Source: a virus
Virus record (IMG/VR): IMGVR_UViG_3300044716_000844
Coordinates: 1-64,000 of that record
Length of the DNA stretch: 64,000 nucleotides
Strand: one strand, 5' to 3'
A program made the position numbers and the translations under genes. The number at the start of each line of letters is the position of its first letter. The first letter of the stretch is position 1. The notes below the pieces were generated by a model, which was given only the letters and a program-made list of their open reading frames with translations, was not told the origin of the DNA and made no database searches. Positions 3,381-20,841 of this stretch are shown one piece after another.

Positions 3381-3595
3381 TGCAAGAACACATTCAAACT
3401 GAAGAAAAAGACTATTCTCGCGACATTACTACGAGAGCTCTAATAAATACAAATAGAAGAGCTCTCGCAGAGCACAAACGAAAGAAAGAAGATACATTGC
3501 GTCTGGATAAACTTGAGCGTAATGTGCAGGACATAATGGCGATGATGTTAGACATTCGTCAAGCAGTACTAGAATTAGGAGCGAGTAAGCAGTAA
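3380..3595 (+). CDS. Small charged coiled-coil protein
   Basis: A 71-residue protein, rich in Lys, Arg and Glu, without Cys or a signal peptide. Residues 25-68 look like one long amphipathic helix (heptad-like LDKLERNVQDIMAMML). Its start overlaps the upstream stop by one base and its stop overlaps the start of the giant fibre gene by one base, so it is co-translated between two virion genes. It could be a trimerising linker or a fibre-assembly helper; neither is demonstrated. No named family is recognised. Confidence 0.65.
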   Translation: MQEHIQTEEKDYSRDITTRALINTNRRALAEHKRKKEDTLRLDKLERNVQDIMAMMLDIRQAVLELGASKQ

Positions 3596-6500
3596 TGGCA
3601 AAGGCACACATCTATTTGGCTGCAGGCGCAAACGTTGAGGCAACGGACACTTTCGCCTCATGGATTGACACCACAAACGCTCTTGTGTTTGATATGGGTA
3701 CGGTCGTACTTACGTCAGTAAGTCAACCTCAGCCGAACGTAACAGTTGGTGGATACACTACTGGTAATGCTCATCTTCAGGGCATCCTTTCTGCAAATAC
3801 GTTAGTTGCTTCGAATAACTTACGAGGCGGATCTGTAAGTATTCCGGGTGATCTAACTGTCGTTTCGAATACAATCTTCTCTGAATCGCCACTCGTTCGT
3901 ATCTCGGCTAACACCGATAACTTTACTGTGAACTCGAACAATACTACATTCACAAGTAACGTTGCGATTAACTCGTCTAAGACTGTTCTCATCTCTGCAG
4001 CAAATACCACGATTAACGCTGGTCAGTTGTTTGTACGCACAAACTCAGAATTTACAGGAACTCGTGTAGATATCGATGGCACTACCTTTGATGTTACATC
4101 AAACACTATTTTCACGTCAGCAACATTTAACGCAAACGCTGATGTAATTACTCTTGGCTTCAATGGAAGCGATGCGCTTACGGTTAACGCTGTATCAGAC
4201 TTCAATGCTAACGTAAACATTGATGGCGTACTATTCACTGTAACATCTACTAATACTACGATCGGTGATTCCGGCACCGATAAGTTCAACGTAATTGCTG
4301 AATCAATCTTCTCTGCAAATGCGACCTTTAACGGCGCTCTTGTTAACATTACGAGTGCTAACACTACCATCGGTGATGCTCCTGCAGATAGATTGAATGT
4401 GAATGCTGTATCAGACTTCAATGCTAACGTAAACATTGACGGCATTCTAACTCAGACTGCTAACGCAATATTCTCTGGTGCTCTTGTCAATATTACTTCA
4501 GCTAATACTACGATTGGTGATGCACCTACCGACGTATTAAACGTGAACGCGACGTCAGACTTCAATGCTAACGTAAACATTGATGGTATCCTCACCCAGA
4601 CAGCGAATGCCATCTTTAGTGGTGCTCTTGTCAATATTACTTCAGCTAATACTACGATTGGTGATGCACCTACTGATGCACTCAACGTTAACGCGGTATC
4701 TGACTTTAATGCAAACGTGAATGTCGACGGTATCTTTACTGTGGCAAACTCTGCTACCGTTTCAAATACCCTTACTGTTAACGTTCAAGCAAATACTGCA
4801 TCTCTTATGGTCAGAGATCTTACTGCCACGAGAATCCCGTACGTTGGAGTTGCTGGAGAAATCGTCGATAGCGCGAACGTAACGTTCTCTGGAACTAACC
4901 TAAACATCATTGGTACTGCGAATGTCACCTCAAATGCGAACGTTGGCGGAACATTCGGTGTAACCGGGGCTGCTACTCTGGCTAGCACACTTGCTGTCAC
5001 TGGAGTCGCTACATTTAGTTCAAACGCAGTATTTTCTGATAATGACTATATCGTTGTTGGTACAGGTGCTGATCTACAAATCTATCATGATGGATCACAT
5101 AGCTATATCACTGATGCAGGAACTGGCAATCTTAAGATCGATGCTTCTCAATTAGACATTCAAACATCTAACTCAACTGCCACTGAGACAATGGCAACGT
5201 TTGTTCGCGATGGCGCAGTAACACTGTTCCACGATAACACTGCAAGATTAGCTACAAGCGGTACTGGTGTTTCGGTTACAGGTACGCTCGGAGTGTCGAC
5301 GAACGCGACTGTTTCAGGTACCCTTAACGTCGCGGGTGTTACCACTCTAGCAAACACTACAGTGGGCGCAGCACCGACAGATGTATTCAACGTAAATGCT
5401 GTATCAGATTTTAATGCGAACGTAAACGTTGATGGTATCCTTACAGTAGTAAACTCAGCTACTATTTCGAATACTCTTACTGTTAACACTCAGGCGAACA
5501 CTGCGTCACTTATGGTTCGCGACCTTACTGCTACAAGAATTCCTTATGTTGGAGTAGGCGGCGAGATTGTCGACAGCGCTAACGTCACTTTCTCTGGAAC
5601 TAATCTAAACGTTATCGGTACGGCTAACGTTACGTCGAATGCAAATGTCGGCGGAACATTTGGTGTCACTGGTGCTGCTACTCTTGCAAGTACGTTAAGT
5701 GTTACCGGTACAACTTCTACCACAGCAATCAATGCGAGTGGTTTAGTGGATGTCACGAATGCGACAGATGCGACTTCAACCACAGCCGCTGCGCTTAAAA
5801 CCGCAGGTGGCCTTGCAGTAGCGAAAAAGTTATATGTTGGCGGTATAGTTGAAGCTTCTGCTAACGTAAATATTACGGGAACCGGAAATCGTATTTCTGC
5901 TCCTGATGCTGCAATTACAAATAACATGACTGTTGGCGGTACGGCTACTATTAATAACCTCACTGTGACTGGTACAACAATACTTAACACCGGCGATGCT
6001 CAGCTATCTCTTAACAACGCGACAACAGCTCACTCTACAGTCACAGATGACCTAACTCTTACAAATGCTACTATTATTGGTAGTGTTGTACCTGACGTAA
6101 ACAACTCATATGATATCGGTACTGGTTCTCTCAATTGGAAAACTGTTTACGCGAATAACGTAGTAGCTAACGTTGCATGGTCAAGTATTACAGACAAACC
6201 GGATCCGGTTGTAACTGTCACACTAACCGGCGACGTCCAAGGTACTGCTAGCGCTACGCTCACAGATCTTTCTAGCAATACGATAAGCATTTCAACCACC
6301 ATTCAACCTAACTCAGTTGCTCTTGGCACTGATACTACCGGTAACTATGTCGGCACTCTTTCTGTGACAACTCCTGGTGTTGCTAACGGATCAAGCGGAC
6401 TTACCTTCACAGGTGTTGCTGGTGAAGGTACTATTGCTGCAATCGCTCACGCGAATACTTCAACAGTTACGAACCTATCAGTAGATAACTCTGCTGGTAA

Positions 6501-9054
6501 TGTGCTACAAGACATATCACTTACCTTTGACGCGTTTGGCCACGTAACCGGTCGTACTATTACGTCAACCGATCTAGATCTGAGATACCCACAAACATCA
6601 TTCACAAACATTGCAGTAGCTGGTCAAAGTACAGTTATCTCTGATAGTTTGACAGATACCCTTACTCTTGTTGGTGCTGGAATTACGACTATCACCACAA
6701 ATGCTACGACCGATACTATCACTATCACTGCGACTGAAGCTGATACTCTTGCTTCAGTAACATCAAGAGGCAATACGACTACAAATAGCATTACTGTGAA
6801 TGATATAAACGCTAATAACGCTGTTATCTCAGGTGGTCTTACAGTATCAGGTGGTCTTACAGTATCAGGCGATCTTACCGTATCAGGTACTACGACATAT
6901 ATTAATACTCAAACTCTAAATGTTGGAGATAATATTGTTACGCTTAATGCTGATGTAACCGGTGCTCCTAACCAAAATGCTGGCGTTGAAATCGAGCGGG
7001 GCGATGCGAATAACGCCGTAGTACTTTGGAATGAAAGTACTGATCGTTGGACGTTCACTAACAATGGCGTCAACTACTTCAATATTCCAGTATCAAGCGA
7101 ATACGATAACTATACTTCTTGGACTATTCAAGACGGTGGCGCTAACACATACACTATCACTTCTGGCGATACTCTGCAGATTGCATCTGGTACGTATATC
7201 ACATCTCTCTTAGCAGCAGACGACATACTTACCATTAGCCACAACAACACGACTCGGTCAGATACTACATCTACAGCTTCGTCAACCTATGCTGGTACTT
7301 TCACAGCGGTTGATGGTGTTACAACGAACGCGACAGGCCATATCACCGCAGTTAACGTTAAGACTGTAACTCTTCCAGCTGGTACAAGCCTTACTACAAC
7401 TGCAGGTACCACAGCAGGTCCAGTTATTAACTCTTCGACCGGTACTGGAGTTACTATTCCTTCTGCTTCGAATACTGCGTCTGGTATCATCACAACCGCC
7501 GCGCAAAATATCGCAGGAGCAAAAACTTTTGAATCAACCATTATTGGTTCGATCAATGGCAATGCGAACACAGCAACAGCGCTTCAAACACCAAGATTTA
7601 TTAACGCTGTAAGTTTCAATGGTACTGCAAACGTTGAGATTAATACACTTCGCACCACAAGTGGTGCGAATATTATTGACGGCACAGCACAATCTCTGCC
7701 TGTTAACCATCTACAAGTTCGAGCCGCGAATACTGCACAAGATGTTCTTATCACAACTGCCGGATCTGACACAAACGTTAACCTTAGTGTTCAGACAAAG
7801 GGTACTGGTTCAATTGCTCTTGATACCGGCGTCGGAGCTGGTAACATCGATATAAAACCTGGTACCGGTACACTTCGTGTTTGGGATAATACTGCCACGA
7901 ACTGGCATTCAGTTGTAGTCGGCGAACTTGCTGCAAACAGAACCATTACACTTCCAGATGGCAACGTAACACTTCAAACCGGTACAATGGCAATCACTGG
8001 TGGTACTCTAGCTCAGTTTGCAGCTACTACCTCATCTGCGCTTGCTGGTGTTATTTCAGATGAAACTGGTACTGGATCATTAGTATTCAGCGCGTCACCA
8101 ACATTTACTGGAACACCTCTAGCTCCAACTGCAGCTGTAGGCACGAACACTACTCAGATCGCTACAACTGCCTTTGTGAACGCAGAGATTGCTAATGATA
8201 TTGTAACTAAGGCTAATATCGCGTCACCGACATTTACTGGAACACCTCTAGCTCCAACCGCAGCAGTCGGGACAAATACCACACAGATTGCTACTACTGC
8301 CTTTGTGAACGCAGAGATTGCTGCTGACATTGTAGTTAAGGCTGATGTTGCTTCTCCAACCTTTACCGGTGTAGTAACTGCTCCAAGATTAAGCCTAACT
8401 TCTACGACTGAGGCAAACACTACTTCAACTGGCCACGCTTTGCAAATTGGCCTTTTCGATAATATTCATCTCGTTATGGATAATAATGAGATTCAAGCAC
8501 GTTTAGACGACACTGCATCAACACTTAACTTAAATGTTGATGGTGGAAATGTTACAATTGGAGCCTCGACTTCTAATATCGATCTAAGAGGAACTACTCA
8601 AGCTCTCGATATTATCCCATCTGTTAACAATACTTACGATCTTGGTTCGCCTTTATCGCGTTGGGCAGTTATGTATGGTACTGCTACATCTGCACGTTAC
8701 GCCGACCTTGCAGAAAAGTATCTTGCTGATGATGAATACCCAGTAGGTACAGTAATGAGCGTTGGTGGAGAAGCCGAAGTAACAGCAGCTACACCTGAAA
8801 CTGCTCATTCAGTCATCGGTGTTGTTTCGGAAAACCCAGCTTATCTTATGAACGATGGCTTAGAAGGCGGCACCGCAATTGCACTTAAGGGTAGAGTTCC
8901 AGTCAAGATTATTGGAACCGTGAAAAAGGGAGACAGATTGACTCCATCCTCTGAGAAAGGTTTTGCAGAAGTTAATAATTCATCTGCTGCATGGACCTTT
9001 GCAATCGCGCTAGCAGATAGCGACAACGGCTTGGTGGAAGCGATTATTTTATGA
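3595..9054 (+). CDS. Giant repeat-built tail fibre-like protein (1,819 aa)
   Basis: A very long Asn/Thr/Ala/Val-rich beta protein of tail-fibre type. The N-terminus (about 1-60, including DTFASWIDTTN) looks like an attachment domain. Residues about 190-400 hold tandem units around DFNANVNIDG and NITSANTTIGDAP. Residues about 403-465 and 638-700 are a duplicated module starting SLMVRDLTATRIPYVGV. Near residue 1500 there are two PTFTGTPLAPTAAVGTNTTQ repeats, the well-known phage fibre repeat. The C-terminus from about residue 1680 (NNTYDLGSPLSRWAVMYGTA, then a YPVGTVMSVGG region) looks like a globular tip domain. No chaperone autoprotease motif was recognised. It ends in a 4-base ATGA overlap with the first gene of the modification island. 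Confidence 0.85.
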   Translation: MAKAHIYLAAGANVEATDTFASWIDTTNALVFDMGTVVLTSVSQPQPNVTVGGYTTGNAHLQGILSANTLVASNNLRGGSVSIPGDLTVVSNTIFSESPLVRISANTDNFTVNSNNTTFTSNVAINSSKTVLISAANTTINAGQLFVRTNSEFTGTRVDIDGTTFDVTSNTIFTSATFNANADVITLGFNGSDALTVNAVSDFNANVNIDGVLFTVTSTNTTIGDSGTDKFNVIAESIFSANATFNGALVNITSANTTIGDAPADRLNVNAVSDFNANVNIDGILTQTANAIFSGALVNITSANTTIGDAPTDVLNVNATSDFNANVNIDGILTQTANAIFSGALVNITSANTTIGDAPTDALNVNAVSDFNANVNVDGIFTVANSATVSNTLTVNVQANTASLMVRDLTATRIPYVGVAGEIVDSANVTFSGTNLNIIGTANVTSNANVGGTFGVTGAATLASTLAVTGVATFSSNAVFSDNDYIVVGTGADLQIYHDGSHSYITDAGTGNLKIDASQLDIQTSNSTATETMATFVRDGAVTLFHDNTARLATSGTGVSVTGTLGVSTNATVSGTLNVAGVTTLANTTVGAAPTDVFNVNAVSDFNANVNVDGILTVVNSATISNTLTVNTQANTASLMVRDLTATRIPYVGVGGEIVDSANVTFSGTNLNVIGTANVTSNANVGGTFGVTGAATLASTLSVTGTTSTTAINASGLVDVTNATDATSTTAAALKTAGGLAVAKKLYVGGIVEASANVNITGTGNRISAPDAAITNNMTVGGTATINNLTVTGTTILNTGDAQLSLNNATTAHSTVTDDLTLTNATIIGSVVPDVNNSYDIGTGSLNWKTVYANNVVANVAWSSITDKPDPVVTVTLTGDVQGTASATLTDLSSNTISISTTIQPNSVALGTDTTGNYVGTLSVTTPGVANGSSGLTFTGVAGEGTIAAIAHANTSTVTNLSVDNSAGNVLQDISLTFDAFGHVTGRTITSTDLDLRYPQTSFTNIAVAGQSTVISDSLTDTLTLVGAGITTITTNATTDTITITATEADTLASVTSRGNTTTNSITVNDINANNAVISGGLTVSGGLTVSGDLTVSGTTTYINTQTLNVGDNIVTLNADVTGAPNQNAGVEIERGDANNAVVLWNESTDRWTFTNNGVNYFNIPVSSEYDNYTSWTIQDGGANTYTITSGDTLQIASGTYITSLLAADDILTISHNNTTRSDTTSTASSTYAGTFTAVDGVTTNATGHITAVNVKTVTLPAGTSLTTTAGTTAGPVINSSTGTGVTIPSASNTASGIITTAAQNIAGAKTFESTIIGSINGNANTATALQTPRFINAVSFNGTANVEINTLRTTSGANIIDGTAQSLPVNHLQVRAANTAQDVLITTAGSDTNVNLSVQTKGTGSIALDTGVGAGNIDIKPGTGTLRVWDNTATNWHSVVVGELAANRTITLPDGNVTLQTGTMAITGGTLAQFAATTSSALAGVISDETGTGSLVFSASPTFTGTPLAPTAAVGTNTTQIATTAFVNAEIANDIVTKANIASPTFTGTPLAPTAAVGTNTTQIATTAFVNAEIAADIVVKADVASPTFTGVVTAPRLSLTSTTEANTTSTGHALQIGLFDNIHLVMDNNEIQARLDDTASTLNLNVDGGNVTIGASTSNIDLRGTTQALDIIPSVNNTYDLGSPLSRWAVMYGTATSARYADLAEKYLADDEYPVGTVMSVGGEAEVTAATPETAHSVIGVVSENPAYLMNDGLEGGTAIALKGRVPVKIIGTVKKGDRLTPSSEKGFAEVNNSSAAWTFAIALADSDNGLVEAIIL
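4477..4673 (+). repeat. 53-bp exact direct repeat within fibre gene
   Basis: Positions 4477-4529 and 4621-4673 are identical over 53 bases and lie 144 bases (48 codons) apart. They encode the GALVNITSANTTIGDAPT part of the fibre repeat. Flanking units at 4195, 4411, 4555 and 4699 start further copies of SDFNANVN, spaced 216, 144 and 144 bases. The spacing is always a multiple of three, so unit gain or loss would keep the frame. Confidence 0.9.
8092..8322 (+). repeat. Two tandem PTFTGTP-type fibre repeats, 129-bp period
   Basis: Two copies of the classic phage fibre repeat are encoded 129 bases (43 codons) apart. Bases 8101-8129 equal 8230-8258 and bases 8171-8193 equal 8300-8322, with synonymous differences in between. 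The protein unit is SPTFTGTPLAPTAAVGTNTTQ followed by IATTAFVNAEIA. Confidence 0.9.
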
Positions 9055-9551
9055 TAACAACTGATCAAGCGTATGGGTTCCTTTCCCATACGCTTCTATA
9101 TGAACAAAAGCTTGTAAAAGCTATTGATGCACAACACTTACAACATGATGTATTTAACTTCGGCGATCTTATTCGTCACAGAGCAAATGGCAGTTCAATC
9201 AAAGTTGAAGGTATGGAAAGATTCTCAACTGAGATCTTTAACCAAGGCCGATTATACGCCAAGTCTTACTTACATGACGGACCAGTCACGTGCCACATGT
9301 TCATTTCTCCTGCTGGATCACCATCCTTTCCAATGCATACCGACCCAGACCACGTCGTGATTCATTGCTGTGAAGGTATTAAGAGGATGCAGATAGTAGA
9401 TAGTACTATTGATATTCATCCTGGGTCGTACGTATATATACCATATAATACTCCGCACATAGCACTAAATGAATATGATGCTCTTACACTGAGTTTTGGA
9501 TTAGAGCGATTTTTGAAGGATAAGATGAATGAACTGGATGTTCTATCTTAA
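9051..9551 (+). CDS. JmjC/cupin-like Fe(II) oxygenase, first gene of the island
   Basis: A 166-residue single-domain protein. The H96-x-D98 pair (FPMHTDPDH) followed by G-S-Y-V-Y-I-P and P135-H136 is the metal-binding layout of cupin/JmjC-like Fe(II)- and 2-oxoglutarate-dependent hydroxylases. Such enzymes commonly hydroxylate amino-acid side chains in proteins. The start overlaps the fibre stop by four bases and the C-terminus overlaps the next gene by 23 bases, which places it at the head of a coupled chain with radical SAM enzymes. Hydroxylation of a phage virion protein is inferred. An inactive cupin used for binding is the alternative. Confidence 0.65.
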   Translation: MITTDQAYGFLSHTLLYEQKLVKAIDAQHLQHDVFNFGDLIRHRANGSSIKVEGMERFSTEIFNQGRLYAKSYLHDGPVTCHMFISPAGSPSFPMHTDPDHVVIHCCEGIKRMQIVDSTIDIHPGSYVYIPYNTPHIALNEYDALTLSFGLERFLKDKMNELDVLS

Positions 9552-10548
9552 AACTACCGAAACATGTAATCTGAATTGCAGTCATTGTTTCACGAATGGT
9601 ATTAATGGTGCTAAGGTGTATTTTGATCCGGTCAAAGTATCTAACTGGATTCATGCATTCCATAAAGAAAAATTTAAACCAGATGATACTGCACACTATG
9701 AGTTCCATGGTGGCGAACCGTTTTTAGTACCAGTATCACAGATGAAATATGTCGTTGACTCTTGTAAGCATCTGTCACCGAATCAATCTTTTGGCGCAAC
9801 AACGAATCTTGTCTATAAGTTAAAACAAGAGCACATCGATTTTATCAAAAACGATCTTGGTGGTAGACTAGGTACGTCATGGGATCCTAAAATTAGATTC
9901 GCAAATTCTAAGCAATACAGGCTGTGGTACGATAACCTGAAAACTTTGCAGCGTGAAGGTATACATATCAAGCTGTTTATTAGTGTCACGAAACAGACGA
10001 TTGCTTACAAGCCTATCGTATTGCTGAGATGGATTCGCAGATTAGGTGTACAAGAAGTGTCATTCGAAAGGCTTACAAGCAACGGATCGGCAAAGCTATT
10101 TCCAGAGATATTTCCAACGAACATTGAACTCGACAACTGGTTCCTTGAGATGCACAATGATACAGTTAAATACGATGCTCGAGGCTGGTTCGACAACGAA
10201 AACCTAGAAAATGTATATGCAAAATTTGAAAACGGTTATAACTCATGCGGTACCTTTTGTCGTGATTGTGAAGAAAAGATTTTTACACTTAACGCAGACG
10301 GTACTATCTCAGGATGTCCAAATGCTGCACCCGAGTTTAACTTTGGATCGATAAACGATTCTATCACGAGTATTATAAATAGTCCAAGAAGGATTCTCAA
10401 TATCGTTGAAGAACGAAGTAGAAATCCTAAGTGCTATTCTTGTCCGGTGTTTAAATACTGTAACGGTGATTGTCACCAGCTTGAATGGCAAGGAGATGTT
10501 TGTGGAGCTCCGAAGAGTTTAATGAAGCTATTGGCTAAGGTAGGATAA
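9529..10548 (+). CDS. Radical SAM/SPASM protein 1
   Basis: A 339-residue radical SAM enzyme. C13-x3-C17-x2-C20 (CNLNCSHC) binds the catalytic 4Fe-4S cluster and GGEP at 61-64 is the SAM-binding motif. The C-terminal SPASM domain is complete, with Cys at 240, 244, 247, 263, 302, 305, 311, 315 and 325, as expected for two auxiliary 4Fe-4S clusters. This architecture is typical of RiPP maturases and anaerobic sulfatase-type peptide modifiers. The start at 9529 has AAGGA at 9516-9520; an in-frame ATG at 9538 is possible. The candidate substrate gene begins two bases after its stop. The substrate is inferred from neighbourhood only. Confidence 0.9.
   Translation: MNWMFYLKTTETCNLNCSHCFTNGINGAKVYFDPVKVSNWIHAFHKEKFKPDDTAHYEFHGGEPFLVPVSQMKYVVDSCKHLSPNQSFGATTNLVYKLKQEHIDFIKNDLGGRLGTSWDPKIRFANSKQYRLWYDNLKTLQREGIHIKLFISVTKQTIAYKPIVLLRWIRRLGVQEVSFERLTSNGSAKLFPEIFPTNIELDNWFLEMHNDTVKYDARGWFDNENLENVYAKFENGYNSCGTFCRDCEEKIFTLNADGTISGCPNAAPEFNFGSINDSITSIINSPRRILNIVEERSRNPKCYSCPVFKYCNGDCHQLEWQGDVCGAPKSLMKLLAKVG
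10374..10381 (+). promoter_or_regulatory. Intragenic TATAAATA late promoter candidate
   Basis: An exact match to the T4-type late promoter core lies inside radical SAM gene 1, about 170 bases before the CHxx-repeat gene. If used by gp55 polymerase it would give the candidate substrate its own late transcript. The match also spells in-frame codons (Ile-Ile-Asn), so chance is possible. Confidence 0.4.
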
Positions 10549-10550
10549 GT

Positions 10551-11201
10551 ATGGCAACCCTAACAGATAATATAAACGCCCAGAACATTGTTGACCGATT
10601 CGCTGATTACGTAGTTGCGAGCGGGAATGCTAGCATTGTATTCGGTACAAATGCTTTACCCTTTGGCACGTACTCATCGTATTTTCCAGCTATTTTTGGC
10701 GGTACTACAACCGCCGGTAGAGCTATAGCTATTACCGGCACAAACCTAGGCGGATCTGGTTCAGAAATTACTGCTGCTACTATTGTAAGTGTTCTTCGCA
10801 CAGAAACTGCTGCGTATACACGGCTTCGTAAATTAAGAGCAGTATTAAATATCACTGGAACCGGATTGCTTACGGGCCAGCCAAACGACGGCGTGTCTAG
10901 TGTCGACACCATCGTTAACACCCGTGATGATCTCGGGCCAATTTTCGGTCAAGGCCCAGGTATCATTTATGATGAAACATCAAAGGCTAACTTAAACACT
11001 ACCTATGTGCAAACACTCGCTGCAACTGCAAACACCGGTATAGTGACAAGCAGTAGTATTACTACGGCTAACCTAGAAACGTTCTTCACAAACCTAAGAA
11101 CTGCTTATGGCACAGCGAGGGATACCATCCATACAGAACAAGTCAACGTTTGTCACGCATCTTGCCATGCCAACTGCCATAGCTCTCGGGGCCGTAGATA
11201 A
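10551..11201 (+). CDS. Candidate modified virion protein with CHxx-repeat C-terminus
   Basis: A 216-residue protein with two unlike parts. Residues 1-195 are Thr/Ala/Gly/Asn-rich, contain no Cys and resemble a small phage structural or fibre protein. The last 19 residues, VNVCHASCHANCHSSRGRR, contain three consecutive CHxx units and then RGRR; all three Cys of the protein are there. It sits immediately after a radical SAM/SPASM gene and is followed by five more radical SAM genes. CXXX-repeat peptides matured by radical SAM enzymes are a known type, and the layout suggests a follower tail or core presented on a structural scaffold. Substrate status is inference. Alternatives are a metal-binding tail or an adhesin tip. 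Confidence 0.8.
   Translation: MATLTDNINAQNIVDRFADYVVASGNASIVFGTNALPFGTYSSYFPAIFGGTTTAGRAIAITGTNLGGSGSEITAATIVSVLRTETAAYTRLRKLRAVLNITGTGLLTGQPNDGVSSVDTIVNTRDDLGPIFGQGPGIIYDETSKANLNTTYVQTLAATANTGIVTSSSITTANLETFFTNLRTAYGTARDTIHTEQVNVCHASCHANCHSSRGRR
11151..11198 (+). other. Triple CHxx repeat plus RGRR: putative modification site
   Basis: Codons at 11151, 11163 and 11175 each begin a C-H-x-x unit (CHAS, CHAN, CHSS), followed by R-G-R-R and the stop at 11199-11201. The three units use different codons (TGT CAC, TGC CAT, TGC CAT, with different third and fourth codons), so the regularity is at the protein level rather than from a fresh DNA duplication. Confidence 0.6.
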
Positions 11202-11211
11202 GGATTATACT

Positions 11212-11940
11212 ATGAATATTATAACAACTAAAGCGCCTATTGGTATCGAAGACCTGAAAGTTTATTTTCAAGACAAAAACACCAAATATCTTATTGACTA
11301 TGCAGCGTCTGATTTAAAGGGCGAAAAGTTACTGATCTATTTAGGTAATCTAGATTTACCGTGCGATATTATCTACGATAACAATGAGTCTCTTTACGAG
11401 ATGGTTGAAGCTTATTTGAAATTTAACCATATCGTAAATATAGAGTCGCTTGAGATCAGAGTTATAGATATGCTATTACAAAGAAAAAATCTCAAGAAGC
11501 AATTTACTCCAGAGATTGTTGAAAAGTTGGGCGATTTACTTGATCAATGGACAAACAAACTCGAGTCATTACTGCTGTACAACATGTACATTCTCAATGA
11601 TGAGAATATCAAAGAGAGTATTCAAGAATATCAACACAATGATACAGACAGCACGGTAGGTATAAACTTTGTCAGTCTGTTAAAGCATGAAGAGTTTTAT
11701 GTATTCTTTGAATCCACCGATGAATCAAATTTGGCATACTACTCTAAATACTTCAACGACTATATGTTTAAGGGCCAAAATCTTTACTCCTACTGGGCAA
11801 ACGAGAATAATCCAATGTTCCTATTAACATGGGGTATAGCAAATGGAGTTGTGACTAAGGAAGAATATAATAACAGTATCATGTCATCGTTGATTGAAAT
11901 TCAAAACGACATTCAGGAGTTAGAAAAATGTTCCACTTAA
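11212..11940 (+). CDS. Unrecognised island protein A
   Basis: A 242-residue soluble protein, beginning MNIITTKAPIGIEDLKVYF. I chose the ATG at 11212 because TAAGGAT at 11199-11205 gives a well-spaced ribosome binding site; an upstream in-frame ATG at 11107 would overlap the CHxx region by almost 100 bases. The protein is acidic, predicted helical and rich in Tyr, Asn and Leu, with one Cys near the middle and one near the end. No family or catalytic motif is recognised. It overlaps the next gene by 13 bases. Its position between the candidate substrate and the other enzymes suggests an adaptor, substrate-recognition or chaperone role, but that is only context. Confidence 0.65.
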   Translation: MNIITTKAPIGIEDLKVYFQDKNTKYLIDYAASDLKGEKLLIYLGNLDLPCDIIYDNNESLYEMVEAYLKFNHIVNIESLEIRVIDMLLQRKNLKKQFTPEIVEKLGDLLDQWTNKLESLLLYNMYILNDENIKESIQEYQHNDTDSTVGINFVSLLKHEEFYVFFESTDESNLAYYSKYFNDYMFKGQNLYSYWANENNPMFLLTWGIANGVVTKEEYNNSIMSSLIEIQNDIQELEKCST

Positions 11941-13085
11941 TCGGCAAGGTATATCTTGCTCCAGATTTTACTATTGACATGGCACATGATCGAGTTATAA
12001 TTTCTGAAGAAAATGGATTTGCCGCCTTTGAGTTTATTGAAAAGATCATGGGTGGTACTTTACATAAGTTTGGCCACACGGTCGAAGACGTAGTTGGTGA
12101 AGACTTTGTTCAATTTTTCGAAGACCTAATCGAATCTTCAAGCCAAACCGGTAGATCTGTTTACATCTACGCGGATGCGGTGGCTCTTCCAAAAATACAA
12201 GCGTTATGGTTTAAGCTTACGCTCGCTAATATTGATGTTGACACTTGTTTTAAGATATATAACGCGAACGTGCAAAAGTATAACCTGTTTTATAAGACTT
12301 CTTTGATCTCGAGCTCAGGATCAAGATACATAACTCACTCTATTGATCCAGAGTTAATTAGACCTGAACTGAATAGTGTTATAGATCTAGACCTAGATGA
12401 ATCCGTCCGAACTGCATTTTGTGAGAAGCATAAGAATATTCTTGGTATCGAGTATTTGCTTGCCAACTATATTTACAATGGTACCTTTAAAGACGAGCTA
12501 AAAACTTCACTTAAAAGAATAATGAGAAAGCATTTTGACGGTATTCTCTTAGAATACAAGGGCACTTTCCTATCTTATTATACTAATGATGATTTTGCAG
12601 AAAGAGTTCAATTAGAGCATAGGTATTCGTTTGACAATCTTTCTGATTTGTCCGAGGATAATAGTGATATCGTAGAGTTCTTTTTGTCAAAACGTTTATA
12701 TAAGACCGTCGAGTTGGCGAAGCATTCTTCGAATAGCAACTTTGTATTTGAAAACATGACCGAAGATGACGTAGAAACACTTCGAATGTTCACCTCTGCT
12801 TTAGGGTCACATTATAGTTTTGATACTTCTACTCCAGATCATACAAGTGTGTCACCACTACTAAGAGATGGATATAAGTGGCAATTTTTAGATTGTATTC
12901 GTGGTGAATTCACTGATGCTTTGCTCGACAGCATGATAGAAGTTGAAGCTTCGATCAACTATGCAGATGGTATATTCTATAACGTTCTTCTCGAGACAGT
13001 AAACGGATTTACCATTCAACATATTCTACGACTCTACAAGAGTGGCGATACAGATAAGCTGAGAAAATTTATAGTTTTTGAATAA
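11928..13085 (+). CDS. Unrecognised island protein B
   Basis: A 385-residue soluble protein, N-terminus MFHLIGKVYLAPDF, followed by a region with a repeated GHTVEDVVGEDF-like character and a long helical remainder. It has few Cys and no visible nucleotide-binding, methyltransferase or metal motif. The start overlaps the upstream gene by 13 bases and the stop shares a base with the next radical SAM start, so it belongs to the same coupled chain. The N-terminal 130 residues look alpha/beta, which would suit a binding or scaffold domain. No function can be assigned. Confidence 0.65.
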   Translation: MFHLIGKVYLAPDFTIDMAHDRVIISEENGFAAFEFIEKIMGGTLHKFGHTVEDVVGEDFVQFFEDLIESSSQTGRSVYIYADAVALPKIQALWFKLTLANIDVDTCFKIYNANVQKYNLFYKTSLISSSGSRYITHSIDPELIRPELNSVIDLDLDESVRTAFCEKHKNILGIEYLLANYIYNGTFKDELKTSLKRIMRKHFDGILLEYKGTFLSYYTNDDFAERVQLEHRYSFDNLSDLSEDNSDIVEFFLSKRLYKTVELAKHSSNSNFVFENMTEDDVETLRMFTSALGSHYSFDTSTPDHTSVSPLLRDGYKWQFLDCIRGEFTDALLDSMIEVEASINYADGIFYNVLLETVNGFTIQHILRLYKSGDTDKLRKFIVFE

Positions 13086-14137
13086 TGCAAAGTGATATCT
13101 TAACAAGAAAAAGAGACTTCGAACAGGAGTACACACTCCATTTGTTTGAGTACTGTAATATATCATGTGCATTCTGCTGGCAAGACCACGACATAAAAGT
13201 TGGCATAGACACTATCACGAATAAGTTAGAGCCTATAGAAAAATTCTTGCAAAAAGAAAAAAGAGATTCGGTTATATTCAATGCTATGGGCGGAGAAGTA
13301 TTTGCGCCTGAACTCTTCGATGAGAGCATTCTCAACGCATACAAAGATCTTAGTATTGGTATTCGCGATCTATGTATGAAATATAATAAGAGCTTCAAAA
13401 TAAACTGGGTAACTAATCTTATCACTGATAAGTACGATTACATCGACGACTTATTCGAGTTTTCTCGTCTAAACAACATCGATGCACACCTTGTAACATC
13501 ATATGATCCACGTGGCCGATTCAACAAAACTACGTTTGAAACGTTTAAAAGAAGCATGGATTACTACAAAGACAAAGTGCAATGTATTAGTATGCTTATG
13601 TCTAAACCGAATGTGGAACACTTATTGAAGTACGGTGATCCGTACTTTGATGAACTATACAAAGCTGGAAAATATATTTACTTTGATTACTATATGCCAG
13701 ATCAATCAGCTCAGTATCAATTTGTATCCGACACGCTTTTGTATCAGTTCTTTAAACACTTGATAGACAAATATCCTAAGACAGAACCGGTGAATTCGTG
13801 GATTGAAAACGATTTTAACTATTTGACTTGCAGGACGAGTAAATTAGTTCTTGCAGACGGTACGATGTGTTTATGTGGCAATCTTGTCCAAGATGACAAG
13901 TCAATAAAGCAGTACTCCAGCAAAATAGAGAAGACTGATAACACAGGTATAGAACATAAATTTATAAGTAAGTATAACTGTTTGGCATGTGAGTATTTCG
14001 GTAGATGCGGCATGGGTTGTTTTATGAGACATGATTATAAGTTTATGGAGGAATTGGATGAGTGCGTCTACAAACTTACGCACAGATATATTGACGATGT
14101 ACGACTACACAGAGGCATCAAACCCGCTCAACGTTAA
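13085..14137 (+). CDS. Radical SAM protein 2 with SPASM-like tail
   Basis: A 350-residue radical SAM enzyme. The cluster motif is C24-x3-C28-x2-C31 (CNISCAFC), with a GGEVF motif at 69-73. The C-terminal Cys set at 249, 262, 264, 299, 302, 308, 312 and 327 resembles a SPASM or twitch domain, indicating at least one auxiliary iron-sulfur cluster. Such enzymes act on peptide side chains through a 5'-deoxyadenosyl radical. It starts on the last base of the preceding stop codon, and its end overlaps the next gene by 80 bases. Only low-level similarity to radical SAM protein 1 is visible, so a separate modification step is likely. Confidence 0.88.
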   Translation: MQSDILTRKRDFEQEYTLHLFEYCNISCAFCWQDHDIKVGIDTITNKLEPIEKFLQKEKRDSVIFNAMGGEVFAPELFDESILNAYKDLSIGIRDLCMKYNKSFKINWVTNLITDKYDYIDDLFEFSRLNNIDAHLVTSYDPRGRFNKTTFETFKRSMDYYKDKVQCISMLMSKPNVEHLLKYGDPYFDELYKAGKYIYFDYYMPDQSAQYQFVSDTLLYQFFKHLIDKYPKTEPVNSWIENDFNYLTCRTSKLVLADGTMCLCGNLVQDDKSIKQYSSKIEKTDNTGIEHKFISKYNCLACEYFGRCGMGCFMRHDYKFMEELDECVYKLTHRYIDDVRLHRGIKPAQR

Positions 14138-14648
14138 ACTACTCGATAATATTGATGTTGTTGCTGATGATATACCAACTGTGTATCCGTACGTTCCTCG
14201 ACTGTGCAAAGAAACCGGCCATATGTTAATATGGTGGGGAACACGAGATACTGATCCGGATATTGCTGATGACTGTTTCAAAGTAAAGTCAGAACCACAG
14301 TGGATTACTTGTAATGAATTGTGGAAGATTGAAAAAGCGGTTGTCTTAATTTGGCCGTATGAGGATGAGATTATCCTAGGAACCGTAAAATATCCTGGTT
14401 ACATGAAGAGGCGCTCGAGCGTAGAAATACGAAGATGGCTTCGAAAAGTATGGGCAGACGTTGTAGTCATGTTCGGTGACAAGAGAATGATATGTCCATC
14501 AGCTACTTATCTTAATTCTATACATATGTATATGAACCAAATGACAATATCACACGAAGCTTATCATCATAAAATGATGAAGAAGTATGGCTTTAAACGG
14601 TATAACGAAGATTTTTGGGTACGAGAAGCGAATGCAAAAACTAATTGA
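14058..14648 (+). CDS. Unrecognised island protein C, weakly GNAT-like
   Basis: A 196-residue protein. The ATG at 14058 is preferred because GGAGG at 14047-14051 lies six bases before it; an in-frame start at 14031 is less well placed. The C-terminus (HHKMMKKYGFKRYNEDFWVREA) has the flavour of the last strands of a GNAT acetyltransferase, where a KxGF element is common, and similar phage proteins occur. The acetyl-CoA binding loop is not clearly visible, so the assignment is weak. It overlaps both neighbours and is therefore translated with radical SAM proteins 2 and 3. Confidence 0.6.
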   Translation: MSASTNLRTDILTMYDYTEASNPLNVKLLDNIDVVADDIPTVYPYVPRLCKETGHMLIWWGTRDTDPDIADDCFKVKSEPQWITCNELWKIEKAVVLIWPYEDEIILGTVKYPGYMKRRSSVEIRRWLRKVWADVVVMFGDKRMICPSATYLNSIHMYMNQMTISHEAYHHKMMKKYGFKRYNEDFWVREANAKTN

Positions 14649-15684
14649 TTTTACACTTGATATCGCTCACGGCTGTAAATTCAGTTGCACGGGTTGTCAT
14701 ATCGATAAGATAAGCGGACGTTTGCCGTCTTCAGCAGAATTCGATCAGCTAGATAAACTTGTAGACGAAATGAATTCTAACGGCTTTAATGCTATGAATC
14801 TTGCAATCGGTCCAACAGATATCATGACTGCTGAAAACAGAGATGATATACTTCTGCATCCCAGAATCAAAAACTTTGCTAATAAATTTATGAAAACCAC
14901 AATCAACTGCGCCTTCTTAGAACCGCATGAAAGTGATTATGTAGATTTAGGCAAAAAGCTGGATTGGCTGCTTCATGGTAAGATGGTAAAATTTGTAATA
15001 CCATTTGAAGCATTTCACATTGATAACCAATCTTACATTGACAAGATCCGCGAAAAGGTCATGTTGACTGTAGAGAATATGCCGAACGTTATTCACACAA
15101 AAACATATCTCAATGTCAACTACGAAACAACGCAAATATACGACAGGCAGAATAACACTAATCTAACTGCTGAATTGATACTCAAACTATATAACTCAGA
15201 TTTGTTAGACGGACTTGATGTTGATCTAATCTTACCGCATCCACGTTCTAATCTAAGAAATAAGTTTATTGGTTCAGAATTTATCAAAGCAGCTAAGACG
15301 CTGAAACAAACTCTGATTGATGCCCGCGAAAAGTACGGTATAGATAATATATCGATAGCAGAAATAGATGCAGAAGAAGGTAAAGATTGGGATATAATTT
15401 ACAAAACTGGTAAGTTATACATGCCGCCGTTTCTACTTGAAGGCTTAGCATGTTTTGATAAAGTATTTGAGATAGACAGAGAGTGGAGTCTAGCTGGACT
15501 ATACGACTTTTACAACAACAGTTTTGTAAAGCAAGTTGATTGGGCATCTACGGTAACTGAATGCAAAGATTGCAGATTTGTGGGATTGTGTGCGGAGCGC
15601 GGTATACATAATCTTATGATGATAACCGGTACACAAGATTGTATCAGCCCAGCGAAAGATATAGGTGGAAATAGAATATGGTGA
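14632..15684 (+). CDS. Radical SAM protein 3
   Basis: A 350-residue radical SAM protein starting at the ATG at 14632, 17 bases before the upstream stop; an in-frame ATG at 14587 would make an implausible 62-base overlap. C15-x3-C19-x2-C22 (CKFSCTGC) binds the catalytic cluster. The usual GGE motif is replaced by the AIGPTD region. The C-terminus has a short Cys group (TECKDCRFVGLCAERG, then a final Cys about 20 residues on), which could bind one auxiliary cluster. The middle part is less like the SPASM enzymes nearby, so substrate or chemistry may differ. Function within the island is inferred. Confidence 0.85.
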   Translation: MQKLIDFTLDIAHGCKFSCTGCHIDKISGRLPSSAEFDQLDKLVDEMNSNGFNAMNLAIGPTDIMTAENRDDILLHPRIKNFANKFMKTTINCAFLEPHESDYVDLGKKLDWLLHGKMVKFVIPFEAFHIDNQSYIDKIREKVMLTVENMPNVIHTKTYLNVNYETTQIYDRQNNTNLTAELILKLYNSDLLDGLDVDLILPHPRSNLRNKFIGSEFIKAAKTLKQTLIDAREKYGIDNISIAEIDAEEGKDWDIIYKTGKLYMPPFLLEGLACFDKVFEIDREWSLAGLYDFYNNSFVKQVDWASTVTECKDCRFVGLCAERGIHNLMMITGTQDCISPAKDIGGNRIW

Positions 15685-16274
15685 ATGGTGACATGACTAA
15701 CATGAGATTTACCAAGGACACGATGCCTGTCTTTGAATACGAGATACCCAAAGAGCTTATTGACAACGCATTCTTAGGTGCAATCGAACTTTTTGTGGCA
15801 AACGAAACACTCAAAGAGAATTTAGATACTGAGAGTAGATACATCATCGCTAATAAAAACATTGACGGTTCGAAGATATCAACAAAGGTAAATTTCGTTT
15901 CGACTGTTAAAAGTCATATCAAGAATTCTAAGATAGGCGAACTTGCTAACTATATTGAAAAGCTTGTTAAGCAAATGTCGTTAGATCACTACTCAGCCGA
16001 CGTCAATTTTAAAGTACACAACTCGACAGTGTTGATGTATAAAGGCGGAGATAATATCGGAAAGCATAACCACTTTCCTTATTGTTTTGTGGTGGCGATC
16101 TACCTGAATATGCCAGAGAATGCTTCTCCTATTAGCTTAGGCGAGAGTTTAGAAATACACCCGAAAGCAGGGACGTGCTTAATATTTCCTGGTAATCTAT
16201 ATCACGAGGTCAAACAAACTGAGGCTGATCGCATCATGATTACTATGGATATAAAAGTCGTTATAGAGGATTAA
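15678..16274 (+). CDS. 2OG-Fe(II) oxygenase-like protein with HxH motif
   Basis: A 198-residue protein of the prolyl-4-hydroxylase-like fold. H130-x-H132 stands where HxD is usual, followed by the strand VVAIYLNMP, then GTCLIFPGNLYHEV with distal H176, and R185 for binding 2-oxoglutarate. HxH occurs in some phage and bacterial 2OG oxygenase families, so activity is not excluded. Starts at 15678 or 15693 are both possible; the first overlaps the upstream stop by 7 bases. It sits between radical SAM genes 3 and 4. Likely role: hydroxylation of a peptide or protein, by inference. Confidence 0.75.
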   Translation: MVNGDMTNMRFTKDTMPVFEYEIPKELIDNAFLGAIELFVANETLKENLDTESRYIIANKNIDGSKISTKVNFVSTVKSHIKNSKIGELANYIEKLVKQMSLDHYSADVNFKVHNSTVLMYKGGDNIGKHNHFPYCFVVAIYLNMPENASPISLGESLEIHPKAGTCLIFPGNLYHEVKQTEADRIMITMDIKVVIED

Positions 16275-16275
16275 A

Positions 16276-17940
16276 ATGCTTAATATCTATTGGTTAAATC
16301 CACCACTGTATACCAGAAACTATTATCCAGATATCGCGTGGATGAATTTCAACACCTATATGCCTGAATACAATTGGGTTAAGCCGATCATCGATTGGGA
16401 AAGTATAGTCACTGAAGAAATGATTTTAGACGACATTTTCAAACAAGACATTAGTGTTCTGTGTATCAGTACATACGAATGGAACACAAACCTATGTCAC
16501 GAGATTGCCAAACGAGTCAAGCAAAGAAATCCTAACATCGTCGTAATCAAAGGCGGGCCACAACAAGGGCACAACGAAAAATTCTTTGACGAACATCCGT
16601 ATATAGACTATCTATGCCATGCCACGGGTCATGGAGAGTTGTTCTTAAAAGAATTCTTGAAACAGTATGTGGAACATGGTAAGGTCGTTAGTCCTGAGAA
16701 GGTGACTCATCTAATATCAAGAGACTATGTTGGTCCTGAACTAAAAATAAAGTACTCGTATCCAGAAGAATCGTCAATAGAAAAGAATATGACATACTTG
16801 ATTGAAGTCGGTATGGCATGTGCTTCTCGTAATGCTCAGACAACTATGTTATATGAGACGACGAGAGGGTGCCCGTATTCGTGTGTTTACTGTGAGTGGG
16901 GTGGTGGAACTGGTAGTAAAGTATCAGCAAAATCTGTTGCGCAAATCAAAAAAGAATTGGAAATCATATCCCTTCTGCGATTTGAATCGTTAGAGATAAT
17001 TGACGCTAATTTTGGTATTCTCAAACGGGATGTCGAAGTTGCCGAGTATATCGTAGAGCTATCAAAGAAGTTTGGATATCCGAAAGAAGTGATGTTGTAT
17101 GGATTGGCTAAGACTACTTCAGAAAAGAAAGAAAAGATCTTAGACATCTTCCATGAAGCAGGATTGATGCAAGCTTATTTTATTGCCACGCAAACTCTAA
17201 ATCCTGACGTCATGGGCATAATCCAAAGAACTGACGTATCAGTTGATGAACACATGAGACTAGCTAAAAAGTACAACGAAAAATACAATAGTGCAGCATC
17301 ATTAGAGTTTATTCTAGGACTTCCAGGATTCACTATAGAAGAATTCTATGAACAGATGAACTATTTTCAAGAACTCCACAGTGTAAACGGGTGGAGAAAG
17401 ATGCGTAACATCCTTACAATGTTGCCCAATACTCCACTCGCAGATCCCGAATATATTAAAAAACATAGTATTAAGGTGTCATTTGCCGGGTCAATGGAAA
17501 ATGAAGAGAACGATACTGTTGGCATATCCAATAGCATTCTCAATAAACATAAGGGCCGTATGTCGTTTGTGACTGAAACGTTCAGTTTTAGTTCGGAAGA
17601 ATGGAAGGAAATGTTCATATTGAATAGACTGCAAAGAGAGATTGGTCCTCGGATTAAGAGTCATATCAAGGCAGATAAACTATTCAAATACGTTTATGAA
17701 CAATTCGAAAAAGACGAAAGTGGAGTGTTTAAGAGAGTAAAGCAACACCTTGATGACTTGGTGGACAACAAACTGGTTGACAAAGACGCTCTTATGGTAG
17801 ATAATAGGCTTATCGAAACCGTGATATACGAAGATTTTATACTGCCAAACAAAGAGCTATTCGCTGACATTGATTTTGATTACGAGATGGCGCATGATGG
17901 AAACACATTGATGCATTTGAAATTAGAAAATGACATATAA
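16276..17940 (+). CDS. B12-binding-domain radical SAM enzyme (radical SAM protein 4)
   Basis: A 554-residue protein with the architecture of class B (cobalamin-binding) radical SAM enzymes. Residues about 1-130 form a Rossmann-like B12-binding domain (VLCISTYEWN, IVVIKGGPQQGHNEKFF, IDYLCHATGHGELFLKEFL). The radical SAM core follows with C199-x3-C203-x2-C206 (CPYSCVYC). A C-terminal extension of about 150 residues is unassigned. Family members methylate unactivated carbons or do other chemistry on peptides and small molecules; some do not need the DxHxxG motif for cobalamin, and it is not seen here. The gene starts two bases after the oxygenase stop and ends in an 11-base overlap with the next. 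Confidence 0.85.
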   Translation: MLNIYWLNPPLYTRNYYPDIAWMNFNTYMPEYNWVKPIIDWESIVTEEMILDDIFKQDISVLCISTYEWNTNLCHEIAKRVKQRNPNIVVIKGGPQQGHNEKFFDEHPYIDYLCHATGHGELFLKEFLKQYVEHGKVVSPEKVTHLISRDYVGPELKIKYSYPEESSIEKNMTYLIEVGMACASRNAQTTMLYETTRGCPYSCVYCEWGGGTGSKVSAKSVAQIKKELEIISLLRFESLEIIDANFGILKRDVEVAEYIVELSKKFGYPKEVMLYGLAKTTSEKKEKILDIFHEAGLMQAYFIATQTLNPDVMGIIQRTDVSVDEHMRLAKKYNEKYNSAASLEFILGLPGFTIEEFYEQMNYFQELHSVNGWRKMRNILTMLPNTPLADPEYIKKHSIKVSFAGSMENEENDTVGISNSILNKHKGRMSFVTETFSFSSEEWKEMFILNRLQREIGPRIKSHIKADKLFKYVYEQFEKDESGVFKRVKQHLDDLVDNKLVDKDALMVDNRLIETVIYEDFILPNKELFADIDFDYEMAHDGNTLMHLKLENDI

Positions 17941-18526
17941 ACAATACGACTTATGGACTGCAAACATAGAAATTCATGATGACTTTATCACAGATAAGGT
18001 TCTATATGAGCAGCTGATCAAAGAATCATCTATCAGTAAAACGATAGATGGTCAAAATGTTTTGGGTCTAACACCAGCACAAAAACAAATCCACAATTTG
18101 GTTACGATGGTGGTCGTTAGTTATTGTATGCGGAATGGTATCGACTATGACAATCTGACGTTTACAGAACTGCAGAAGGGTTCTTTACACAAGTATGATC
18201 AAACCATGGTGAGTAATCACTTATATGAACCGCACGACGATCGAGTCGAGGGATCTTTCTTGACAGCTCTTTACTATATCGATAGTTCATATGATAAATA
18301 CTCTTCTAATTGGGTCGGAGGTGAACTGACCATTTACAAGAATCTGACGTTCGCTGAATACCCCAACAACTCTATCAATATCCTGCCCAAGCAAAACAGA
18401 TTGGTGATCTTCCCGGGATTCAATGTCCATAGGGTCAAACCGTACTTCGGTGACAAGCCAAGAACATCACTAGTGTTTGGATGGTCAGTTAACGATCAAC
18501 CACAAACCGAATCATTGACTGTATAA
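17930..18526 (+). CDS. 2OG-Fe(II) oxygenase, prolyl-4-hydroxylase-like
   Basis: A 198-residue protein with a complete facial triad: H102-x-D104 in YEPHDDRVEG, distal H167 in FPGFNVHRVK, and R178 for the 2-oxoglutarate carboxylate. The spacing and the GGELTIYKN strand match P4H-like phage hydroxylases. Members hydroxylate protein or free amino acids and need Fe(II), oxygen and 2-oxoglutarate. It overlaps the B12 radical SAM gene by 11 bases and is followed after one base by radical SAM gene 5. The target is unknown; the island's CHxx protein is a natural candidate. Confidence 0.85.
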   Translation: MTYKQYDLWTANIEIHDDFITDKVLYEQLIKESSISKTIDGQNVLGLTPAQKQIHNLVTMVVVSYCMRNGIDYDNLTFTELQKGSLHKYDQTMVSNHLYEPHDDRVEGSFLTALYYIDSSYDKYSSNWVGGELTIYKNLTFAEYPNNSINILPKQNRLVIFPGFNVHRVKPYFGDKPRTSLVFGWSVNDQPQTESLTV

Positions 18527-18527
18527 T

Positions 18528-19565
18528 ATGGACCTTATTATTAAGCCGACTGAAGTGTGTAACTTCAAATGCACATTCTGTTCATCAACGAAGATATCAG
18601 AAGAACATACGTCTCAACTTGATCTTGAACGCGTCTTTCGTTTTCTTAAACGATATCCGAACACAAGCACTATCATCGTGAATGGTGGTGATCCTCTGAT
18701 GATGAGTCCGGCATATTACTGGAGACTCATCAAACACCTGGATGATAATAACTATCCTGCTACTATATCTCTTACGACTAATCTTTGGCCGTTCTATAAG
18801 AATGTGTCAAAGTGGAAACAACTGTTCCTGCACCCGCGCATAGGTGTAGCCACGTCTTTTCAGTATGGGAATGGAAGACTCAAAGGTGATTACTCAGTGT
18901 TCACCGAAGAAGACTTCTGGAATGCTTCGAATGCAATGCTTGAGCATATCGGATACCGCCCAACCTTTCTTGCAGTGATTACGGAAGAGAATGAAGATAC
19001 TGTTATACAGACAGTTGAGTTAGCTAAAAGAATGGGTGTAGTCTGCAAAGTCAACTATGCCATGGCAAGCGGTGATCAAGATAAGCCATATAGACTATCA
19101 AAGATCTATGAGAAATATGTTGAGATCTGGAAAGCTGGTTTAGCGCCGTGGGAACATAATACTCAGCAAATGTTAAAGCGGCTGAAAGGCGAGAATACTA
19201 TATGCCCGCAAAGCCGAACATGTGACTCAAACATTCGTAACATTAATCCTGAGGGTGATTACTATTCATGTGGTGCTTTCGGTGACGATCGTGATAAGGA
19301 GATTGACTTCGAATACGAGATGGCCGGTGGATTTTCTACTCCTTTGACGGACGACCTGAATCTACTATCGCTTAAGAAGTCATGCTTTACTTGCCCGATG
19401 TTCGAGATATGTAATGGTTGCAGAAAGACTGTGAAAGACCTAAAGAACTTTGGAATGGTTGAAGATCATTGTAAACATATGAAACAACTTGCACCAGAGA
19501 TTATTCGTGCGAATGGTCTTAATTTAGAACCAACACCTTATGTTGACGAATCATGTATACAGTAA
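18528..19565 (+). CDS. Radical SAM/SPASM protein 5
   Basis: A 345-residue radical SAM enzyme. C11-x3-C15-x2-C18 (CNFKCTFC) and GGDP at 53-56 define the core, and SPASM-type Cys at 226, 232, 248, 286, 289, 295, 298 and 315 define auxiliary cluster sites. The DYYSCGAFGD and CFTCPMFEICNGC segments are the clearest SPASM signatures. It is a second full SPASM enzyme in the island and differs from protein 1 in almost all of its sequence, so a different residue or step is likely. It overlaps the next radical SAM gene by 13 bases. Confidence 0.9.
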   Translation: MDLIIKPTEVCNFKCTFCSSTKISEEHTSQLDLERVFRFLKRYPNTSTIIVNGGDPLMMSPAYYWRLIKHLDDNNYPATISLTTNLWPFYKNVSKWKQLFLHPRIGVATSFQYGNGRLKGDYSVFTEEDFWNASNAMLEHIGYRPTFLAVITEENEDTVIQTVELAKRMGVVCKVNYAMASGDQDKPYRLSKIYEKYVEIWKAGLAPWEHNTQQMLKRLKGENTICPQSRTCDSNIRNINPEGDYYSCGAFGDDRDKEIDFEYEMAGGFSTPLTDDLNLLSLKKSCFTCPMFEICNGCRKTVKDLKNFGMVEDHCKHMKQLAPEIIRANGLNLEPTPYVDESCIQ

Positions 19566-20464: not shown

Positions 20465-20841
20465 AGCAAGAGATATATCACAGACTTAACAATGAATATC
20501 GAGATGATTTAAATAACGTTGATATCGTTATAAGTAATGAGTACAACAATATCATTCGTCACTTCCACGAAAAAGTCGATCAGTGGATATATCCGGCAAA
20601 GAGTTATTTTGTAGCTGTATGTTATGCCAGTTGGATAGCAGAAGATTATAACGAAGATCTCATTGAACTTCTTAGAGATCCCATGTTACTTGCAGGTAAT
20701 GATCCATACTTTAAAACATACGATGAAGATCCTGAGACTTATGATAAGATATTAAGAGATATTGAGTTGCCATTAAAAATGAATGGCATGGTGCCAGATG
20801 TAAAGGAATATTATGATGAAGAGATTGCCTTTCGGATTTAA
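20446..20841 (+). CDS. Unrecognised island protein D
   Basis: A 131-residue acidic, helix-rich protein (MQEWKIKQEIYHRL at the start, NDPYFKTYDEDPETYDKI further on). It has a single Cys and no visible catalytic motif. Its start lies within the last 19 bases of radical SAM gene 6 and its end overlaps the next oxygenase by 29 bases, so it is part of the coupled chain. Its size and charge would suit a peptide-recognition partner or chaperone, but nothing in the sequence proves it. Confidence 0.6.
   Translation: MQEWKIKQEIYHRLNNEYRDDLNNVDIVISNEYNNIIRHFHEKVDQWIYPAKSYFVAVCYASWIAEDYNEDLIELLRDPMLLAGNDPYFKTYDEDPETYDKILRDIELPLKMNGMVPDVKEYYDEEIAFRI

Follow-up and report, generated by a model that had tools for sequence, protein, structure and literature searches.

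The radical SAM cassette and its place in the tail-fibre module

The window, the 64,000-nt stretch of DNA analysed here (positions 1 to 64,000 of IMG/VR record IMGVR_UViG_3300044716_000844), is part of a 95.6-kb virus contig. The contig encodes a major head protein, portal, tail sheath and large terminase and represents a T4-like myovirus; among isolates, Sinorhizobium phage phiM12 has the portal nearest to its own (61.5%). Six radical SAM (rSAM) genes, which account for six PF04055 matches at 9550-19822, belong to an operon of 12 kb in the window. From the cupin gene (9051) to the last 2OG-Fe(II) oxygenase gene (21385) one strand is used throughout and the genes mostly overlap. The features are:

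3595..9054, + strand: long repetitive fibre-type protein, directly upstream of the cassette (context from sequence, outside the enzyme set)
9051..9551, + strand: cupin/JmjC-like protein, in most loci the second gene before the tail gene
9529..10548, + strand: rSAM_A, radical SAM enzyme with a full 7-Cys SPASM domain, upstream neighbour of the tail gene in nearly all loci
10551..11201, + strand: tail-bearing protein, the proposed substrate; all Cys of its 216 aa lie in the tail (sequence and homologues)
11151..11198, + strand: invariant C-terminal module CHASCHANCHSSRGRR, then TAA; proposed modified segment and/or enzyme recognition tag
11212..11940, + strand: protein D (PHROG 20767, uncharacterised), first gene downstream; start at 11107 in the ORF caller, homology from about 11212
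11928..13085, + strand: protein E, uncharacterised, second gene downstream
13085..14137, + strand: rSAM_B, second SPASM-type radical SAM enzyme
14031..14648, + strand: accessory protein F, uncharacterised, overlapping the end of rSAM_B
14587..15684, + strand: rSAM_C (CKFSCTGC)
15678..16274, + strand: 2OG-Fe(II) oxygenase
16276..17940, + strand: B12-binding domain radical SAM enzyme; nearest NCBIfam model a KedN5-type C-methyltransferase, below cut-off
17930..18526, + strand: 2OG-Fe(II) oxygenase
18528..19565, + strand: rSAM_E
19553..20464, + strand: rSAM_F
20446..20841, + strand: accessory protein G, uncharacterised
20813..21385, + strand: 2OG-Fe(II) oxygenase

A gap of 2 bp separates rSAM_A from the tail gene, and the adjoining rSAM/SPASM gene and the cluster of six rSAM genes are as a previous reading of the sequence alone had described them. 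Near its N-terminus rSAM_A carries the rSAM triad CxxxCxxC, with C13, C17 and C20 invariant in A1, and the triad together with the 7-Cys SPASM motif (Cx9-15Gx4C...CX2CX5CX3C...C) is present in 19/19 diverse rSAM_A sequences. The TIGR04085 SPASM domain is found at 38.3 bits (cut-off 27). Among NCBIfam models rSAM_A comes closest to PapB, DynA and the anaerobic sulfatase maturase (anSME), all well below cut-off, and the nearest solved relatives are 8vpo, 5wgg, anSME (4k36-4k39) and ChlB. Thus by family resemblance rSAM_A appears to be a peptide/protein maturase that belongs to no named family. Distant rSAM relatives with approximately 26% identity are also found in Pseudomonas megaplasmids, e.g. 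NZ_CP097104.1:393150-394118; they occur in many plasmids and at times in two places per plasmid.

In each lineage examined, fibre-type or virion structural genes are situated upstream of the cupin, and the minimal unit of cupin, rSAM/SPASM enzyme and tail protein lies downstream of tail-fibre genes. In pelagimyophages, the island between VrlC and gp14 is described as a host-recognition cluster to which rSAM cassettes are variable additions (PMC7029224). Accession offsets anchored on the portal (gp198) and the prohead core (gp204) identify the tail protein of phage Atu_ph07 as gp170, and PMC6102473 lists mass spectrometry-based virion-protein clusters that include CDS 170-215. As all three clusters listed there are exactly 46 CDS wide, the boundary place of gp170 may reflect how the clusters were drawn. 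The sequence-only reading had placed the tail on a virion-type scaffold; position in the tail-fibre module and, indirectly, the Atu_ph07 cluster favour this without proving it.

A close relative of the window phage (IMG/VR 3300021963_006667, L381:2902-13744; portal 81%) carries a different rSAM cassette at the corresponding position, ahead of the downstream fibre genes that both phages share; this cassette has no rSAM_A, D or E and no CHxS tail. A 123-aa structural-type protein ending in HSHTWDDAIV lies there directly before a SPASM-type rSAM gene, possibly a second, unrelated pairing of rSAM enzyme and virion protein.

The C-terminal tail and the proteins that carry it

The open reading frame at 10551-11201 ends in VCHASCHANCHSSRGRR-stop, and its C-terminus is also given as ...TEQVNVCHASCHANCHSSRGRR followed by the stop. 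Its translation confirms three consecutive CHxx units at the C-terminus and no other Cys. The tail is 16 residues long and consists of C-H-x-[S/N] repeated three times, then R-x-R-R-stop. Three units were correctly recognised in the first reading, but the repeat is better written CHx[S/N] than CHxx: the fourth position, unfixed by the search, is S or N in 170, 172 and 165 of 176 homologous tails at repeats 1, 2 and 3. All 176 terminate in R-[GSNA]-R-R-stop, with C, H and R fixed by the search pattern for most of them and unfixed in the enzyme-selected and body-selected sets. As a degenerate DNA pattern, the tail with its stop gives one match in the window (11151-11201) and none in 100 shuffles. 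Synonymous codons vary at every invariant tail position, thus selection acts on the protein. Within the body family of the window, the mean frequency of the commonest residue is 0.90 in the tail versus 0.61 in the body.

A degenerate DNA scan of IMG/VR for the tail yields at least 119 stretches. Among the matches listed for viral and phage loci, the motif ends exactly at the stop after RxRR in 140 of 142 in-frame occurrences. The proteins that carry it are of structural type and 120-360 aa long. By their bodies, the 176 distinct tail proteins can be sorted into at least 13 groups that show no mutual similarity at E 1e-4, the biggest containing 120 and 39 of them. In jumbo phages of Pseudomonas, Agrobacterium and Burkholderia, tblastn matches are confined to the C-terminal part, and full-length jumbo-phage relatives display almost no likeness outside it. 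Judged from these sequences, conservation is confined to the tail and the bodies are not conserved. Profile searches of the body and of protein D against PDB sequences gave nothing convincing, and a short chimeric tail used as tblastn query gave 0 matches, the query being too short.

Variants of the arrangement occur. In L053, L063, L079, L088 and roughly 20 loci like them, the single larger protein is replaced by two tail proteins in tandem, each of 125-140 aa and with the same CHxS tail. A 231-kb jumbo-phage contig (L041:290-8878) encodes a tail protein with four CHx[N] units (CHSNCHSNCHSNCHTNRSRR); seven consecutive rSAM-type genes come after it, with one other gene in between. Candidates for a true bacterial version were rejected: the C-terminal genome_contigs occurrences with titles shown are from metagenome-derived bins or uncultured assemblies and are likely phage contigs, and the isolate match whose end position is correct arises by chance from poly-Arg.

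Association of the tail with rSAM_A and the accessory genes

The cassette is distributed among T4-like metagenomic phages, Atu_ph07, Phosso and jumbo phages of Pseudomonas and Burkholderia. When loci are selected by rSAM_A (the best 80 of 371 relatives), six are cut at the contig end and the other 74/74 show the exact tail, on a gene just downstream. Searches with the body alone, from which the tail had been cut off, select loci that have the tail in 47/47 intact genes and rSAM_A upstream in 50/50. The sequence-only reading had proposed to see whether homologues of the tail always sit beside radical SAM genes, and 50/50 records selected by the tail encode rSAM enzymes, mostly 4-6 each. The three selections overlap in part because some contigs were found by more than one query. 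A control of 26 records selected by the portal shows both tail and rSAM_A in one and neither in 25, where single absences are weakened because many of these records are fragments.

Isolates with rSAM_A, which reach down to 43% identity, comprise seven records from six jumbo phages (DT01, Atu_ph07, Phosso, SURPRISE13, FLC6 and FLC8), and all have the tail. In FLC8 a full-length 88% tblastn match extends to the last residue and the tail matches too. Homologues lacking the tail in genomes that keep the enzymes, which the first reading had named as the result that would count against it, were sought and did not appear in the 74/74 and 47/47 loci or in any of the rSAM_A isolates. Together these loci fit the genetic side of a RiPP-like pathway, in which a precursor that contains a conserved recognition/core segment is genetically coupled to enzymes dedicated to its modification.

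Sixty-one loci have enough flanking sequence to count the neighbouring genes: rSAM_A and D are found in 61, rSAM_B in 60, the cupin in 59, E in 55 and the B12-rSAM gene in 28. Approximately 25 loci have two tandem tail proteins and a rearranged order; the D homologue is present, as are the cupin and rSAM_A where the flank reaches. Profiles for D and E did not detect either protein in the locus of Burkholderia phage SURPRISE13, which has the smallest gene set, therefore D and E are not universal, and the common core from these counts is thus the cupin, rSAM_A and the tail protein. The other rSAM enzymes, the B12-rSAM enzyme and the 2OG oxygenases vary among loci, as tailoring enzymes would be expected to do. 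Inside the rSAM cassette of the Burkholderia phages SURPRISE13 and FLC6 lies a pair of adjacent genes with dihydrofolate reductase annotation (L009:19957-21134); a reductase role in the modification is possible.

A proposed maturation line, its alternatives and known systems

The association argues strongly for the tail protein as substrate of the cassette enzymes, and with it the earlier proposal of the C-terminal tail as the rSAM target gains support as a prediction from sequence. We consider it highly probable that the phage encodes a RiPP-like line whose target is the Cys/His tail on a virion protein with a role in the fibre or host recognition. During infection rSAM_A and the co-conserved cupin, usually with D, E and rSAM_B, would recognise the neighbouring structural protein by its tail, CHx[S/N]-CHx[S/N]-CHx[S/N]-RxRR. 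rSAM_A would then modify tail Cys, His or Ser, most likely by a cross-link or a carbon/sulphur bond of the kind SPASM maturases make, with conversion of Cys to formylglycine as an alternative product. Candidate products would be a Cys-linked cross-link (PapB-like), a carbon-carbon cyclophane and formylglycine (anSME-like), and in some phages the extra rSAM, B12-rSAM and 2OG oxygenase enzymes may add further changes. The mature protein would then become part of the tail-fibre/baseplate apparatus, with the modified tail as the possible tip or anchor of a host-recognition part. Because bodies diverge fast, a common anchor with the variable body as receptor binder is slightly favoured over a tail that forms the tip with the body as mount. 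Location of the tail on a structural body suggests that no peptide is released.

Formylglycine formation at one or more tail Cys by an anSME-like rSAM_A is a variant of this maturation line that we regard as unlikely. CHxSR, the last repeat, is similar to the CxPSR/CxAxR motif of sulfatases, an invariant Arg follows it, and rSAM_A aligns at full length with anSME (TIGR03942 7.8e-14; PDB 4k36-4k39, profile positions 10-317). However, the Arg follows only the last of the three repeats, the scores are far below the anSME cut-off, and the cross-linkers PapB and DynA score as well or better. In other contractile-tail phages metal is known to sit in the spike tip. The three Cys and three His of the tail are invariant and are classic metal ligands, which fits a rival reading in which the tail binds metal as a tip (Zn, Fe or an Fe-S site formed by these residues), assembled through Fe-handling enzymes, with no covalent change. 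This appears improbable, as it leaves unexplained the SPASM rSAM maturase that is adjacent in every case, the conserved RxRR end and the S/N at the fourth repeat position. The tail could also be an assembly tag that merely coexists with the enzymes.

A further alternative, which we judge very unlikely, has the enzymes make a small molecule or modify the host surface or other proteins, the tail protein being an unrelated fibre component of the same host-recognition island. In PMC7029224, pelagimyophage rSAM cassettes come and go in a host-recognition cluster with glycosyltransferases, and in PMC5332604 the rSAM genes of T4-like viral genomes are read as Fe-S metabolism; both agree with such an arrangement. 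But chance co-location would often break, and tail and rSAM_A stay together in all 74+47 loci (the former from the best 80 of 371 rSAM_A relatives). The coupling also spans T4-like and other jumbo phages, with the tail conserved and the body not. Thus a pure metal site, or enzymes that act elsewhere, explain the strict coupling less well than modification of the tail.

The open literature, a scope that largely leaves out subscription journals and preprint servers, gave no description of a CHx[S/N] tail, nor of a virion protein matured by rSAM enzymes. Open literature that joins RiPP-type topics with jumbo phages held nothing useful, and searches for the tail letters as text in papers returned noise. 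The word 'radical' is absent from the text of a jumbo-phage overview (PMC7824862), and published genomes list the cassette enzymes only as accessory or other genes. If modification of the tail is correct, phages bring their own RiPP-type chemistry for a structural protein, which is unreported in the open literature searched, and the rSAM clusters of T4-like and jumbo phages that were noted without a substrate or read as Fe-S metabolism acquire one. The tail tag, shared by 13 body groups, may then target different proteins for rSAM chemistry, and the tail protein would be an undescribed host-recognition component. The reading suggests a chemically remodelled tip or anchor on the particle of many large bacterial viruses. 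The broader proposal is that a horizontally spread multi-enzyme radical SAM line rebuilds an invariant Cys/His tail on unrelated phage host-recognition proteins, which would give a non-standard virion tip or anchor and a categorically new virus maturation; for this proposal we see the chances as evenly balanced. The chemistry may be conventional, with novelty confined to the target and the setting. Because six cultured phages carry the cassette, the modification is directly testable.

The cassettes of pelagimyophages and T4-like environmental phages, as far as the available text of PMC7029224 and PMC5332604 goes, likewise have multiple rSAM genes in T4-like phages, and those of PMC7029224 lie inside a variable fibre island; unlike the present case, no substrate or conserved tail is identified there. 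Among enzyme families, anSME shows a full-length alignment with rSAM_A, including the SPASM domain, and acts on protein Cys or Ser. However, the motif here is another, with three repeats and a C-terminal position, and rSAM_A gives 51.5 bits with TIGR03942 (cut-off 349), which places it outside the family. PapB of the ranthipeptides and the SCIFF-type thioether maturases are rSAM/SPASM enzymes that act on Cys-rich precursors and are among the nearest NCBIfam and PDB matches to rSAM_A. In contrast, the substrate here is a virion-type protein rather than a short peptide, and rSAM_A is below all curated cut-offs; with the PapB model it gives 55.1 bits (cut-off 340) and is not a member.

The His-Xaa-Ser (Hxs) system combines C-terminal H-x-S repeats with two or more rSAM enzymes, and the tail and its cassette share both traits, but the unit here is CHx[S/N]. 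HxsB gives 33.6 bits with rSAM_A (cut-off 370), HxsC 27.4 bits with rSAM_E (cut-off 268), and the substrate has no HxsA-type match, so the cassette does not belong to the Hxs system. Likeness to CXXX-repeat peptides, suggested in the sequence-only reading, stands as an analogy; substrate and enzymes fall below the cut-off of every named family. None of the NCBIfam models matched the substrate, and the CXXX-repeat maturase is absent from the best 25 families of rSAM_A. As in the CXXX-repeat peptide/radical SAM maturase systems of NCBIfam, a Cys recurs every four residues at the C-terminus beside an rSAM gene. Unlike those systems, the tail has exactly three repeats (four in one contig), an invariant His and an RxRR end, and is carried on a structural-type protein of 120-360 aa.
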